From Thermoprotei archaeon (GTDB lineage: Archaea > Thermoproteota > Thermoprotei > Thermofilales > B20-G17): a stretch of DNA of 43,440 nucleotides. The position numbers and the translations under genes were made by a program. Below the pieces are notes generated by a model. That model did no database searches. It saw nothing but the letters and a program-made list of their open reading frames with translations, and was not told where the DNA came from. The stretch spans positions 1 to 43,440 of the forward strand of contig QMRH01000011.1 in assembly GCA_003650675.1 (NCBI GenBank), given 5' to 3'. Shown one piece after another: positions 1,993-43,082 of this stretch. Position 1 is the first letter of the stretch. Each line of letters begins with the position of its first letter.

Positions 1993-2102
1993 TGCCGGGG
2001 CCGGGATTTGAACCCGGGTAAACCGGATTTCTCCTCTTCTAGCCCTTAATTTGATGGCTGGATTATGAGTCCGGCGCCCTAACCAGGCTAGGCGACCCCG
2101 GC
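1993..2102 (-). tRNA. tRNA-Met(CAT), elongator type, with 35-nt intron
   Basis: On the minus strand the acceptor GCCGGGG pairs with CCCCGGC and is followed by A73. The T arm is CCGGG-TTCAAAT-CCCGG. The anticodon arm is CCGGA-CTCATAA-TCCGG once a 35-nt intron (2029-2063) between positions 37 and 38 is removed. The exon-intron junctions fit a bulge-helix-bulge: 3-nt bulges TAA and AAA cut after their second base, plus an AGCC/GGCT hairpin inside the intron. The CAT anticodon alone could also be initiator or Ile2. The G-C-C-G-G-G-G acceptor and the CGGACTCATAATCCG-type anticodon arm favour elongator methionine. CCA is not encoded. The mature length is 75 nt. Confidence 0.93.
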
Positions 2103-2945: not shown

Positions 2946-3998
2946 TTATGTTTCTGAAATTTTTATACGTACATGAGTCGGGGTTTCTTCTACGATCTTG
3001 TAAACCAAGTTGGGCTTACTAGCAAGATATTTGATGGTCTCTGCATGTACCTTTGCAGTTCCCCCGTACACCCTTTTAAATAAGGCTACTGGCGCCTCCT
3101 CGACGAAATTCTCCAGTAAAACATAAAGTAATAATCCATTATCCTCAACCATCTCACATGTTTCAGCCACGTTAATCCCTCTTCTAAAGTAAAGCAACGC
3201 TGTTTGGTACGTTCCCTTGTAAAGCGTCGTACAGAGATGGATGTTCAAAGGCAACTTATTTTTCACAATGCTTCTAAGAACTCTTAAACCTGTTTCATAA
3301 CTTCCTTTTACAGCCGCGCTTGATCCATCTCTGAGTTTAAATCCTCTTTCAAGCAGTGAAAGAGCATTGCTTTCACTAAATTCTAGTTCATTCAGGTTGA
3401 CGAATTCTACTTCACATTCATAGGCTAAGAAATTCAGCATCGAGAGGAGAAAATCTTCTTTTCGCGGTATAATTGGTACTTCAATCCCCACAGAAATACA
3501 GTCTCCTGCTCTTCGGGATAGAGTTGTAATAAAACTCCATTCCTTTCTACTTTTAAGGTGGATGCGTAATTCATCTAACCCAGCTTCAACGAGCTTCTTA
3601 TACTTTTTTGATACCAGATCTACAGCCCCTGTATACAGGTGTATGTGAAAATCTTTACCAAAGTGTTCCTTTAAAAGCATTATAATGTTTATCGTTTCAT
3701 CAAACCTATAAAGCGGTTCACCTCCCGTTATTCCGGCTCCTTCAGCGTCCATTAACTCTGCTTCCTCCAGTATATCTCCAAGCCTCTTAACTTGCCTTTC
3801 GTTAGCGAAAATTATGTTTCTTCCTCTCTTCTCTAGGCTTATTGGACAATAAAAGCAGTTATAGTGGCATACACCTGTAGCAAAGATAACTAGTTTCCGT
3901 CCCCGCATACAAAGTAAACAACCTTTCGCCAGTTCACCATATATTAGATTCCCGAAAGGGGTTTCCTTTATTCCAGGAATCTGAACATCGTTATGCAA
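2946..3998 (-). CDS. Radical SAM protein of unknown substrate
   Basis: The 350-residue protein carries the canonical CX3CX2C motif (C44, C48, C51, 'CHYNCFYC'), which binds the 4Fe-4S cluster used to cleave SAM. A 'GITGGEPL' SAM-binding motif lies near residue 95. Two more cysteines just upstream (C27 and C30, 'CLLC') suggest an extra metal site. The N-terminal phrase 'GCLLCMRGRKLVIFATGVC' recurs in uncharacterised archaeal radical SAM proteins distantly like pyruvate-formate-lyase activases. The ATG lies 31 bp inside the end of the upstream acetyltransferase gene, so the two are probably co-transcribed and translationally coupled. No substrate can be deduced. Confidence 0.8.
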   Translation of the reverse strand: MHNDVQIPGIKETPFGNLIYGELAKGCLLCMRGRKLVIFATGVCHYNCFYCPISLEKRGRNIIFANERQVKRLGDILEEAELMDAEGAGITGGEPLYRFDETINIIMLLKEHFGKDFHIHLYTGAVDLVSKKYKKLVEAGLDELRIHLKSRKEWSFITTLSRRAGDCISVGIEVPIIPRKEDFLLSMLNFLAYECEVEFVNLNELEFSESNALSLLERGFKLRDGSSAAVKGSYETGLRVLRSIVKNKLPLNIHLCTTLYKGTYQTALLYFRRGINVAETCEMVEDNGLLLYVLLENFVEEAPVALFKRVYGGTAKVHAETIKYLASKPNLVYKIVEETPTHVRIKISET

Positions 3999-6351: not shown

Positions 6352-6454
6352 GCGGGGGTGCCCGAGCCAGGTCAAAGGGGCGGGACTCAGGATCCCTCTG
6401 GGAGGAGAACTCCCGTGGCGTAGGCCTGCGCGGGTTCGAATCCCGCCCCCCGCA
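6352..6454 (+). tRNA. tRNA-Leu(CAG) with 18-nt intron
   Basis: The acceptor GCGGGGG pairs with CCCCCGC and is followed by A73. The T arm is GCGGG-TTCGAAT-CCCGC, and a long variable arm marks it as type II. The anticodon loop is CTCAGGC after removal of an 18-nt intron (6392-6409) between positions 37 and 38. The junctions form a bulge-helix-bulge: stem CGGGA/TCCCG, 3-nt bulges GGA and AAC cut after the second base, a short CTC/GAG central helix and a TCCC/GGGA intron stem. The mature tRNA is 85 nt and decodes CUG. CCA is not encoded. Confidence 0.95.
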
Positions 6455-16333: not shown

Positions 16334-17671
16334 ATGTCGCTTTTAAAATTCGGAGAACGCCTGTCCAATGCAATCTCTCGGATAAGTAGGGCCGCATTTG
16401 TAGATAGGAAAATAGTCAAGGAAACAATAAAAGAGATCCAGCGTGCACTACTTTTAGCCGATGTAAACGTTGATCTAGTTTTACAGTTATCGAGAAACAT
16501 TGAGGAAAGAACATTCAAGGAGGACGTGCCCCCGGGATTTACCAGACGTGATATAGCACTTAAAGTGGTATACGAGGAACTAACAAATCTTCTCGGAGGA
16601 GATAAAAAACCATCCTTGGAGATAACGAAAAAACCTTATATTATAATGTTAGTTGGCATCCAAGGTTCAGGGAAAACAACTAGCGCTGCAAAGTTATCTT
16701 ACTTCTATAAGGAAAAGATGGGACTAAAACCTGCAATAATATGCGCCGATAATTTCAGACCTGGGGCACTAGCACAGTTAATGCAGTTGGCAACGCCTCT
16801 AAACGTCCCAGTCTACGGCGACCCCAAAAAAACACCTATAGAAATAGCGGAAAATGGTATAAAAAAATTCATCGCCGAAAAATACGATATCATAATAATC
16901 GACACCGCCGGTAGACATAAAGAAGAAAAAGCTCTCCTAGAGGAAATGCGTCGCATAGCGGATGCAATAAAACCCGACGAGGTAATGCTTGTAATAGACG
17001 CTACTATAGGTAAACAAGCCGGTATACAGGCTAAACACTTTCACGAAGCGACTCCACTGGGCTCCATCTTTTTAACGAAACTCGACGGAGCCGCAAAGGG
17101 TGGGGGAGCCCTTGCCGCTATAGTTTCGACCGGGGCGTCAATAAAGTTCATTGGAACGGGTGAGAAAATAGAGGATATCGAAGTATTTGACCCGCCTTCT
17201 TTTGTTAACCGTCTACTAGGTATGGGCGATCTACGCACCTTAGTGGAGAAGCTCAGAAAAGTGGAACTTATGGATAAAAGACGGCTAGAGAGGATTATGA
17301 GTGGAAAATTAACTTTACTCGACTTCAAGGATCAACTCAAAAGTTTACGACATATGGGCTCGTTAAGCAAGATATTTGAACTTCTACCGGGTGGCCTAGC
17401 ATATAAGATGGGTGATAAGGAGCTAAAGCTGTCAGAAGAAAAGCTTAAGAAGTGGCTAGCAGCTTTAGACTCGATGACCCAGGAGGAGCTTTTGAAACCA
17501 AGCATTATTAATAGATCTCGTATTCAAAGAATAGCTAGAGGAGCTGGAGTATCTTCAAAGGATGTACGTGACCTCTTGAAGGCGTATGAAATGGCTCGAA
17601 AACAGCTTAAACTCATGTCAAGGCGGAATTTTAGGAGATTGCGATCCATTTTAGGGAAATGGTCTAGCTAA
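16334..17671 (+). CDS. srp54: Signal recognition particle GTPase SRP54
   Basis: The 445-residue protein has the N domain (1-95), the G domain with 'GIQGSGKT' (108-115), 'DTAGR', 'TKLDG', and the methionine-rich M domain from about 310 ('IMSGKLTLLDFKDQLKSLRHMGSLSKIFELLPGG'). The SRP RNA-binding helix 'SRIQRIARGAGVSSKDVRDLL' lies near the C terminus. It binds signal peptides and SRP RNA and delivers ribosomes to FtsY. Its stop codon lies in the same frame as, and 21 nt before, the inferred AUA start of trmY. Confidence 0.97.
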   Translation: MSLLKFGERLSNAISRISRAAFVDRKIVKETIKEIQRALLLADVNVDLVLQLSRNIEERTFKEDVPPGFTRRDIALKVVYEELTNLLGGDKKPSLEITKKPYIIMLVGIQGSGKTTSAAKLSYFYKEKMGLKPAIICADNFRPGALAQLMQLATPLNVPVYGDPKKTPIEIAENGIKKFIAEKYDIIIIDTAGRHKEEKALLEEMRRIADAIKPDEVMLVIDATIGKQAGIQAKHFHEATPLGSIFLTKLDGAAKGGGALAAIVSTGASIKFIGTGEKIEDIEVFDPPSFVNRLLGMGDLRTLVEKLRKVELMDKRRLERIMSGKLTLLDFKDQLKSLRHMGSLSKIFELLPGGLAYKMGDKELKLSEEKLKKWLAALDSMTQEELLKPSIINRSRIQRIARGAGVSSKDVRDLLKAYEMARKQLKLMSRRNFRRLRSILGKWSS

Positions 17672-17692
17672 AACTGAAGCTGGGGATCGACA

Positions 17693-18247
17693 ATACGTAC
17701 ATTCATCGTATTAATTCCTTGCTTAACTTCCCTCCAGTCTTCCATACCTCTATTTTCACGTGTAATTGTCTACACCTTTCTAATTTCCCACAATATAAGA
17801 AGAGACACTAATCTAACACTATATCTGATGAAGGAACATACGATTATCGTTTTCCATGGAAGTAAGCTTAAGAGAATATATCCCGATGAAAGATCCCTTA
17901 GTGGGGTATACAGAAAAATCATTAGATTCATTAAAAATAGAAAATCCGGTTCACCTCATACGGGAATTTATGTAAGCGAGAGAAGTTTAGAAGATCTTAT
18001 TAAAAGCTTACACGGCTCCAAGTACTATATACATAACAAGGGGATTGACCCCTTGAACATGGAAGTTCATCCACTAGGGGTAAATATTTTTCTTTCATAC
18101 GGTGAAACAAAAAACATGGAACCCCCGACATTATGTAAGAAGAAAAAGCTGAAAGCCTTAAAAATTCCCGTCAAAGTATTCAATCTGGATCAACAGATAG
18201 CCATAATACAGTCCATCATTGACAGGAGGTTACACAAGTGGATATAA
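17693..18247 (+). CDS. trmY: tRNA (pseudouridine54-N1)-methyltransferase TrmY, probable AUA start
   Basis: The 139 residues from ATG 17828 ('VFHGSKLKRIYPDERS', 'PHTGIYVSERSLEDLI', 'DQQIAIIQSIIDRRL') match the C-terminal two-thirds of TrmY (SPOUT fold). The same frame stays open upstream for 45 codons and encodes the missing N-terminal part, including 'FLISHNIRRDTNLTLYL', equivalent to the conserved '(F)LSH.IRRD' of TrmY. There is no in-frame ATG, GTG or TTG there. The family N terminus M-R-x-F-I-V aligns with codons ATA CGT ACA TTC ATC GTA at 17693, preceded by GGGGATC at a suitable distance. The start is therefore probably AUA. The full protein is 184 aa, slightly short in the N-terminal loop. 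It overlaps pus10 by 10 nt and uses the product of Pus10 (psi54) to make m1psi54. Confidence 0.88.
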   Translation: MRTFIVLIPCLTSLQSSIPLFSRVIVYTFLISHNIRRDTNLTLYLMKEHTIIVFHGSKLKRIYPDERSLSGVYRKIIRFIKNRKSGSPHTGIYVSERSLEDLIKSLHGSKYYIHNKGIDPLNMEVHPLGVNIFLSYGETKNMEPPTLCKKKKLKALKIPVKVFNLDQQIAIIQSIIDRRLHKWI

Positions 18248-19560
18248 TTAGAAAGACGGAGGAGATTATATCCCGCTACCCTCTATGTAACACGTGTCTA
18301 GGCCGTTTATTTTCTTCCCTAGGCTACGGTCTTGAAAACTCTCAACGCGGATTTGCCTTAAAGACAATGCTGTTAATGAAGGCATATAACTCGCTTGAAG
18401 AAGAAAATAACATAAATTTAGTAAAAAAGCTTGCAAGAAGTGGTTTTAAGCCAGCAATGAAACTTTTAGAAGAGAAATTTAACACAAGTATGGATGAAAA
18501 CGAAGTTGAGAAGTGTTTTATTTGCAAGGGATTGCTGGAAGAAGAGTCTTTGTTTAAGAAAATATCTCAACGGATATTAACATCACTGAGGGAGATCGAG
18601 TCTAAGACGTTTCTTATAGGTGTAAGAGTAGACGAGTCTATGGTTGCACGTGAAATGCAGGTGATCTCAGACTTCGGTGTCGAAACCTCTGAAACCTTGA
18701 AGCGCGAAATAAACCGTAAAATAGGTAAAATTATCGAAGCATCTTCTCGCTTAAAGGTGGATTACAAGGACCCAGAAGTAACCGTCATAGTGGATTTTCC
18801 AACTGGTAATCTAGAAGTAAACATAAAACCACTGTTTGTTTATGGACGATATCGAAAGCTTGTCCGCGGGTTGCCGCAAAGTGCCGGTAAAGACCATGTA
18901 CGGTGGGATGCTCCGCCTAAACCGAGTATTGAAGAGTACATTGGAAGACCTTTATTGAAGGTGACTAGAGGTGAAGAGGTTCGTCTACATGGTGCTGGAC
19001 GCGAGGATGTTGATGTACTGACTTTGGGTTCTGGAAGGCCTTTTGTAGCGGAGGTACTTAGACCGCGTATAAGATGTATTGATTTGAATGAACTGGCAAG
19101 ACGTATCAGGGAATATAGTGAAGGCAAGGTTGAAGTGGAGGATTTAAGGATTGTGGCAAGAAGTATGGTTGAGAAAATAAAGGTTCTCTCAGAGAAAGCT
19201 GTAAAACTTTACCGTGCAATTGTTACGTTTGAAGGGGATGTGGATGAAAAAGACTTAAAAAGCATTGAATCCTCCTTTAAGAATATTCTTATAAAGCAAC
19301 AGACTCCCTTACGGGTATTAAAGCGTCGCGCAGACAAAGTACGTTCAAAAATAGTATATTATGTTAAAACCAAAAAAATATCATCGAATACTGTCGAGTT
19401 TCTAATAAAATGTCAGGGAGGTCTATACGTAAAAGAGCTTATAACAGGCGATGCTGGAAGAACGCGACCCTCATTTTCCGAAATTCTAGGAACCCAACCC
19501 CGAAAAATAGTTCTTGATATACTTTATATAGAAGAGACAACGCGGGGGCTGGAACGTTAG
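18238..19560 (+). CDS. pus10: tRNA pseudouridine(54/55) synthase Pus10
   Basis: The 440-residue protein begins with the Pus10 zinc-binding/THUMP-containing region ('PLCNTCLGRLFSSLGYG', with a second pair of Cys at 'KCFICKG'). It ends with a pseudouridine synthase domain holding the family motif 'REDVDVLTLGSGRPFVAEV' around residue 260, whose aspartate is catalytic. Archaeal Pus10 makes psi54 and psi55 in the tRNA T loop. The GTG start is preceded by a strong AGGAGG and lies inside the end of trmY, so the two enzymes that act in sequence on U54 are translationally coupled. Confidence 0.94.
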   Translation: MDIIRKTEEIISRYPLCNTCLGRLFSSLGYGLENSQRGFALKTMLLMKAYNSLEEENNINLVKKLARSGFKPAMKLLEEKFNTSMDENEVEKCFICKGLLEEESLFKKISQRILTSLREIESKTFLIGVRVDESMVAREMQVISDFGVETSETLKREINRKIGKIIEASSRLKVDYKDPEVTVIVDFPTGNLEVNIKPLFVYGRYRKLVRGLPQSAGKDHVRWDAPPKPSIEEYIGRPLLKVTRGEEVRLHGAGREDVDVLTLGSGRPFVAEVLRPRIRCIDLNELARRIREYSEGKVEVEDLRIVARSMVEKIKVLSEKAVKLYRAIVTFEGDVDEKDLKSIESSFKNILIKQQTPLRVLKRRADKVRSKIVYYVKTKKISSNTVEFLIKCQGGLYVKELITGDAGRTRPSFSEILGTQPRKIVLDILYIEETTRGLER

Positions 19561-42593: not shown

Positions 42594-42791
42594 TCACTCG
42601 TATTCCTTCACAAGTATAGCCTTTATCTTAGCCTTCCCTCCAGTAGGTTCAGCTAACACTGCTCCACACACTATACAACGGGTTACAATTTTAGCGTAGT
42701 TAAATATCACTTGTTCATTACCACAGTCGGGACAACGCACCTTTATGAACTTGCTTTTAGGCTGGGGAACCAGTATCTTAAATTTCCTAAT
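42594..42791 (-). CDS. rps27e: Small-subunit ribosomal protein S27e, probable AUU start
   Basis: A 65-residue frame encodes all of S27e: '[29 protein letters not shown]...[24 protein letters not shown]' with zinc ligands C20, C23, C39 and C42. Between the L44e stop (same frame) and the conserved body there is no ATG, GTG or TTG. The codons are AGG GTC ATT AGG AAA. GAGGTGA, a seven-base match to the 16S anti-Shine-Dalgarno, lies six nt before ATT 42791-42789. The start is therefore inferred to be AUU. The length and position between L44e and aIF2 alpha are exactly as expected. Confidence 0.92.
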
Positions 42792-42797
42792 GACCCT

Positions 42798-43082
42798 TCA
42801 CCTCGCCTCTCCAAGAGTTAATTTACGTACCCTAATTCCCTTTCTATGTCGTATATATCCGCAGGTACGGCATTTAAGCTTCAATACCTGTTTTTTAGTT
42901 ATTTTTGCTGTACGTTTCTGCTCGGGTTTTCTCTTTGAGCCGTAACCCTTCTTCTTGGCTTCGTAACGTCGCTCGCCTTCTGCTAGACTCCTACGTTTTC
43001 CCGCCTTATATATGGTGACAGTATGTACTGTATGTTTACGACATCGTGGACAGTATGTTCTTATCCTCTTTGGAACCTCCAT
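42798..43082 (-). CDS. rpl44e: Large-subunit ribosomal protein L44e (eL42)
   Basis: The 94-residue basic protein begins 'MEVPKRIRTYCPRCRKHT' and ends 'LKCRTCGYIRHRKGIRVRKLTLGEAR', with zinc cysteines C11, C14 and a second pair near the C terminus. It contacts the tRNA E site. The ATG at 43082 gives the family N terminus; a TTG further upstream (43097) lies within the GAGG-containing leader. A TATA-like AAGTTTATCTTAT at about 43122-43134 on the minus strand is the likely promoter of the L44e, S27e, aIF2 alpha, Nop10 operon. Confidence 0.95.
   Translation of the reverse strand: MEVPKRIRTYCPRCRKHTVHTVTIYKAGKRRSLAEGERRYEAKKKGYGSKRKPEQKRTAKITKKQVLKLKCRTCGYIRHRKGIRVRKLTLGEAR

Follow-up and report, generated by a model that had tools for sequence, protein, structure and literature searches.

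The question raised by this locus is where translation of a trmY-type methyltransferase gene from an uncultured, heat-loving archaeon begins when its reading frame offers no ordinary start codon for the first part of the protein. In the window (the whole 43,440-nt stretch of DNA analysed here), the frame stays open from position 17678, directly behind the TGA of 17675-17677, until the TAA stop (18245-18247), and contains no in-frame ATG, GTG or TTG between 17678 and the ATG at 17828. Start codons other than AUG, GUG and UUG are generally regarded as great rarities among prokaryotes, and gene callers propose none. A sequence-only reading had pointed to 45 stop-free codons without a canonical start upstream of this ATG and to an ATA followed by CGT ACA TTC ATC GTA, with GGGGATC ahead of it; both descriptions are borne out by the sequence, the ATA lying at 17693-17695. 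The reading that we favour, with a probability of roughly 0.86, is that translation would begin at this AUA with an ordinary initiator Met-tRNA, within a lineage-wide tolerance of near-cognate starts. The features of the locus are the following.

16334 to 17671, forward strand: srp54, encoding the signal recognition particle GTPase (PF00448, E=3.9e-69; PF02978; PF02881)
17682 to 17688, forward strand: Shine-Dalgarno-like GGGGATC, separated from the ATA by GACA
17693 to 17695, forward strand: ATA, the putative start codon of the trmY-type gene, aligned with the start codons of its relatives
17693 to 18247, forward strand: SRP54-linked trmY-type gene (DUF358 SPOUT methyltransferase paralogue), 184 aa, recognised by PF04013, 2qmm/3aia, AlphaFold and Foldseek
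17828 to 17830, forward strand: first in-frame ATG, codon 46 of the full protein and the default gene-caller start
18238 to 19560, forward strand: pus10, encoding a tRNA pseudouridine synthase, with a GTG start (PF21238, E=6.9e-65)

The protein called by default from 17828 has 139 aa and lacks 45 of the 184 residues (24%), in agreement with the earlier estimate that about a quarter of the protein would be missing. That these 45 residues are the TrmY N-terminus, as had been claimed, is confirmed by homology: taken alone, they matched a profile of 14 relatives of the trmY-type gene (window sequence excluded) with 38.2 bits (E=6.7e-11), aligned over profile columns 1 to 44, while the top score among 1000 shuffled 45-residue peptides was 6.2 bits. 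The remaining forward frames of the 17693-17827 region gave no match to this profile, and a frameshift origin of the N-terminus was rejected since no homologous N-terminus lies in the other frames. A readthrough fusion with srp54 was likewise discarded; the two genes share a frame, but a TAA and a TGA intervene. Relative to G002, the nearest relative compared (42% identical), the 45-codon piece differs at 27, 13 and 31 sites on codon positions 1, 2 and 3, respectively, which we read as a protein-coding signature. Its codon adaptation is poor (0.3rd percentile among the coding segments of this genome), and this poor codon usage explains why a coding-potential scan by itself missed the extension.

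Relatives were present in 48 of the 61 genomes searched. The named loci, reached through Pus10, place the window in or near Thermofilales, and the alignment of start codons among homologues that the sequence-only reading had called for places those of the same order exactly at the column of the ATA. The codon found there is GTG in G002 and L002, TTG in G001 and L004, ATG in G021 and L003, CTG in L020/L021 and ATA in L045/L050. No homologue begins at the position matching ATG 17828, and of the 45 codons only the ATA at 17693 agrees with the homology and at the same time lies at a suitable distance from the Shine-Dalgarno site. No canonical start is compatible with the conserved N-terminus, and the codon at the homologous start column is a near-cognate with a normally spaced, if imperfect, ribosome-binding site. 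In the leader GGGGATCGACA, GGGGA, in place of GGTGA, sits 6 nt ahead of the ATA, the distance at which the spacing between GGTGA and canonical starts peaks in this genome. The duplex of the leader with 16S rRNA has a predicted energy of -8.4 kcal/mol (shuffle p=0.02), calculated with the conserved archaeal tail, the genome's own 16S 3' end being missing from the assembly.

The neighbouring genes are arranged differently in the window and in its relatives. Here, 21 nt separate the TAA stop of srp54 from the ATA, and the first 10 nt of pus10 lie within the 3' end of the trmY-type gene. In most relatives, the trmY-type start lies at -4 to +2 nt from the srp54 stop, with overlaps that read ATGA, GTGA or TTGA, CTGA in the genomes with a CTG start and ATAA in L050. 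Termination-reinitiation works efficiently at archaeal overlaps, but in Haloferax a spacing of about 20 nt leaves almost none of it (PMC10666635). The close srp54-trmY junction on which such coupling depends, an overlap or a gap of a few nt, is found in most relatives and is absent from the window; with a gap of 21 nt, at which Haloferax shows next to no reinitiation, coupling fails to account for initiation in this genome.

The protein encoded from the ATA matches PF04013 with 53.9 bits (cut-off 25.5; E=2.5e-14 to 3.9e-14), a score that drops to 36.9 bits without the extension, and its relatives of known structure are 2qmm and 3aia. An AlphaFold model of the 184-aa protein (pLDDT 89.7, pTM 0.88) has as its best Foldseek match the DUF358/TrmY protein 3aia of M. 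jannaschii (E=2.6e-12, TM 0.78/0.72), and the product is accordingly predicted to have the TrmY/DUF358 SPOUT fold of the 3aia/3ai9 type. In the model, a strand (residues 2-8), helices 11-16, 18-29 and 35-38, and nearly all of a strand at 39-45 precede codon 46, and the invariant residues R2, S32, H33 and R36 are all encoded upstream of ATG 17828. As judged from this model, translation from 17828 would yield a disrupted fold and cannot give the enzyme.

The identification of the gene as trmY stood in part: its family and fold are those of DUF358/TrmY, but it is not the closest TrmY homologue of the genome. A second DUF358 gene, located downstream of a ribosomal-protein gene, scores better on PF04013.

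L158 19150-19749 (contig C23), forward strand: second DUF358 gene, the closer TrmY homologue (PF04013, E=2.1e-27, versus 3.9e-14 for the window gene)

Because the gene on C23 matches the family better, we take the window gene to be a divergent, SRP54-linked trmY-type paralogue and not the only trmY of this genome. Both kinds of DUF358 gene are found throughout the order. The C23 gene also has a probable ATA start, since its leader reads AGGTG GACTTTT ATA and 74 codons pass before a canonical start, although the aligned start is about two codons off. In the relative G002, the frame of the second TrmY (G002:C35:8287-8865) crosses one in-frame TAG.

Near-cognate codons in good Shine-Dalgarno context recur elsewhere in this genome. 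Requiring a strictly spaced GGTGA or AGGTG and at least 8 codons ahead of any canonical start of the called gene, we found 12 non-canonical codons in 1.23 Mb, 7 of which were ATA, ATT, ATC or CTG (null expectation 10%, P=5e-5; P=1e-4 when ACG is added). The enrichment, clear here, was less pronounced in G013, a finished Thermofilum-type genome (P=0.2 for ATN plus CTG, 0.002 with ACG), and the control G041 yielded too few cases for the test to have more than little power. A six-frame homology comparison, filtered by coding strand against antisense ORFs, was also made. The genes concerned are listed below with their putative starts; those of S27e, Hel308, the dehydrogenase-like gene and RpoD are supported by homology.

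42594 to 42791, reverse strand: ribosomal protein S27e, ATT start at 42791-42789 (NF001629, E=7.8e-27)
42798 to 42802, reverse strand: GGTGA Shine-Dalgarno site (in GAGGTGA), 6 nt ahead of the S27e ATT, its TGA being the stop of the upstream ORF
L120 4021-6684, reverse strand: Hel308 helicase, GGTGA GTAACC ATA (6 nt), matched from model position 2
L118 9354-10223, forward strand: RNA polymerase subunit D (RpoD), GGTGA GGAGCA CTG (6 nt), matched from model position 2
L145 12697-13134, reverse strand: dehydrogenase-like gene, GAGGTGGCTCTGGA ATT AAG CTC GGA ATA ATA GGA, matched from model position 1
L151 7961-9910, reverse strand, and L146 3245-4708, forward strand: genes for two secreted-type proteins, beginning at CTG and ATC behind good Shine-Dalgarno sites

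The S27e gene lies in the window itself; its leader reads GAGGTGA AGGGTC ATT, with a strong Shine-Dalgarno site, the ATT aligns with the ATG of the relative G001, and no canonical codon occurs until a GTG 17 codons into the frame. A gene caller would miss the gene or start it 17 codons late. By a rough estimate, about 8-9 near-cognate starts occur in some 1260 called genes, the window gene included, and nearly all starts in this genome are ATG, GTG or TTG. Weak candidates were left out of this count, namely an ABC permease (L121) with an ATG 12 codons on, a HEPN protein (L124), a glycosidase-like gene (L124) with an uncertain start, and the ACG cases in G013. Among the relatives, ATT starts were seen in the genes for leucyl-tRNA synthetase and an ABC permease in G013 (L222 and L206, both on the minus strand) and for HypE in G001 (L191, minus strand).

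Several other features of this genome were observed in passing. The Hel308 gene in L120 carries the intein splicing regions TIGR01445 and TIGR01443. Two Rfam tRNA matches of more than 100 nt in the window, at 1993-2102 (minus strand) and 6352-6454 (plus strand), went unreported by ARAGORN and are probably intron-containing tRNA genes. Apparent frameshifts were seen in rpl11 near homopolymers (L150, reverse complement, 3470-3600) and in an exosome/RNase PH-like gene (L158 10563-11342); both are probably assembly errors.

The pattern of near-cognate starts also extends beyond the window gene and its genome. Most trmY-type relatives begin with ATG, GTG or TTG, and ATA, ATC and CTG recur among them. 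In Candidatus Methanomethylicia SKYB69 (L050), the gene reads AAC ATA AGA GTT TTC ATA, with a TAA two codons upstream of the start and the first canonical codon 11 codons past the ATA; in Candidatus Culexarchaeum nevadense (L045), it reads ATA AGG GTT TTC ATA GTG, the GTG being only 5 codons downstream. In Candidatus Culexmicrobium (L039), the start is probably an ATC, with a GGAGG 7 nt ahead of it and a TTG 5 codons later. Two Thermofilum-type genomes (G012 and G015, loci L020/L021) have a CTG start, the next canonical codon being 61 codons on. Under one uniform rule applied to the same loci, N-termini without a canonical start numbered 5 of 28 for the trmY-type gene, 0 of 56 for SRP54 and 1 of 80 for Pus10, an excess whose significance (Fisher p=0.0006, or 0.013 without the window and with the CTG sisters counted as one) was calculated after the trmY case was known. 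In Methanomethylicia SKYB69, the Pus10 gene (L050, about 3494-3593, plus strand) has some 30 codons without a canonical start and an ATC or ATT after GGAGGTG; near-cognate starts thus occur in the trmY and pus10 genes of this genome alike.

Two explanations would dispense with initiation at AUA altogether. Translation might start at ATG 17828, which is, after all, the first canonical start and follows a piece of poor codon usage, and would then produce a 139-aa fragment, probably inactive or re-purposed. This alternative, raised in the earlier reading, is hardly credible: the fragment would have neither the first core strand nor the helices that follow it, would miss the four invariant residues and would keep next to nothing of the second strand, and it is this loss of core elements that makes the 17828 start implausible for an enzyme, while conservation at the protein level is strong upstream of 17828 and homologues starting there are lacking. 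The other explanation is that the ATA is a base error in a metagenome assembly or a fresh point mutation of an ATG that lowers or abolishes expression. ATA and ATG differ by a single substitution, the assembly is in 149 contigs with 6.45% contamination, and it does hold a few frameshifts, such as those in rpl11 and the exosome-like gene. However, the closest relatives carry GTG and TTG, two changes away from ATA, and the remainder of the gene is intact. At least 8 genes would need errors in their starts, and the error rate of about 0.2% per base that this implies would create roughly 120 nonsense codons in 1261 genes, whereas a comparison of 514 reference genes turned up a single gene split here, and inspection added one more frameshift, the one in rpl11. 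Random base error is therefore a poor explanation of the ATA start, and because two further archaeal classes have ATA in this column too and Shine-Dalgarno-backed ATT, ATA, ATC and CTG codons begin other genes of this genome, a point change from ATG, also offered in the earlier reading, has become highly unlikely.

Other explanations keep initiation at AUA and differ in its cause. The occurrence of several different near-cognates in one genome could reflect a lineage-specific initiator tRNA or an altered initiation factor that reads AUN and CUG as ordinary starts. We find this most improbable: almost every start is an ATG, GTG or TTG, the part of the genome scanned holds ordinary Met(CAT) tRNAs only, and the aIF1 gene is present with its SUI1 domain. 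A special UAU initiator tRNA was rejected on the same scan, in which none was seen. It is also conceivable that the near-cognate start is a regulatory device, in which looser start selection would give more methyltransferase and this would in turn tighten initiation, for example via modification of the initiator tRNA. Near-cognate starts recur in the trmY-type gene across lineages and are rare in its neighbours, the C23 paralogue has a probable ATA start as well, and TrmY acts on the T-loop of tRNAs (reviewed in PMC7912444). Nevertheless, most relatives use ATG, GTG or TTG, the starts of S27e, Hel308 and RpoD in the same genome point to a general tolerance, and the idea depends on a presumed substrate of the window paralogue, so that we consider a regulatory device decidedly unlikely.

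From the frame, the N-terminus, the start column and its recurrence, which were observed directly, we infer initiation at the AUA, the tRNA used, a low level of expression and the reason for it. The 30S subunit would be placed by the Shine-Dalgarno-like GGGGAUC, and an ordinary initiator Met-tRNA would pair with AUA despite a third-base mismatch, the full-length methyltransferase being made at a low rate. Since srp54 ends 21 nt upstream, initiation in the window would occur chiefly de novo, with the GGGGATC site as its guide, and would be inefficient. The Thermofilales lineage may tolerate AUA, AUU, AUC and CUG as near-cognate starts, with the trmY-type gene especially prone to them: where the start overlaps the srp54 stop, as in the relatives, termination-reinitiation may be undemanding of the start codon, which has probably relaxed as a result, and selection may then tolerate, or even favour, making little of a modification enzyme. 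Lowered expression through a weak start codon, suggested in the earlier reading, is plausible. In E. coli, AUU supports 0.3% of the expression obtained with AUG (as cited in PMC10666635), and in Sulfolobus aIF1 discriminates against non-canonical starts (PMC6237735).

The interest of these observations is that a single genome of one lineage holds several near-cognate starts, which affect two RNA methyltransferases, a ribosomal protein, a DNA helicase and a subunit of RNA polymerase, and that in one gene such starts occur repeatedly across classes. If confirmed, they would mean that conserved proteins are absent or truncated in annotated archaeal proteomes, and they would provide natural cases for studying the stringency of archaeal start selection by aIF1 and aIF2. 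In bacteria, the infC gene encoding IF3 has an AUU start, is autoregulated by IF3, and keeps this start in several lineages. The trmY-type gene may resemble infC, as a gene of the translation apparatus in which near-cognate starts (ATA, ATC, CTG) recur, although most of its relatives have ATG, GTG or TTG; it differs in that infC is known to be autoregulated, whereas any regulation of the window gene would be hypothetical. By analogy, the near-cognate start (AUA, AUC or CUG) of the SRP54-linked trmY could act as a sensor of start stringency and so be the archaeal equivalent of infC. The lineages in question would be those in which at least a few tenths of a percent of genes start with AUN or CUG and gene callers overlook or shorten them. 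We regard this speculation as unlikely.

With TrmY/DUF358 itself (COG1901), the tRNA pseudouridine-54 N1-methyltransferase, the window gene shares the Pfam family, the fold and an adjoining pus10, but it is a divergent paralogue with a shorter N-terminal region, and a closer homologue exists on C23. The reinitiation described at 4-nt overlaps (PMC10666635) has its likeness in the srp54/trmY overlaps of the relatives, those with CTG and ATA included, while the window genes, 21 nt apart, fall outside the reported working range. No paper on AUA starts in archaea was found in the literature searched, with most subscription journals lying outside it. In a reconstruction from 36 genome triplets, with about 69,000 starts, only very few had switched to CUG or AUU, a frequency of the order of 1e-4 (PMC5622118). 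The case that comes closest in kind is the ATC start inferred for ribosomal protein L12ae of Staphylothermus marinus (PMC2678158), which is likewise a conserved crenarchaeal gene whose near-cognate start was deduced by alignment where no valid start exists; it is a single case in another gene, with ATC instead of ATA and no recurrence across lineages reported.
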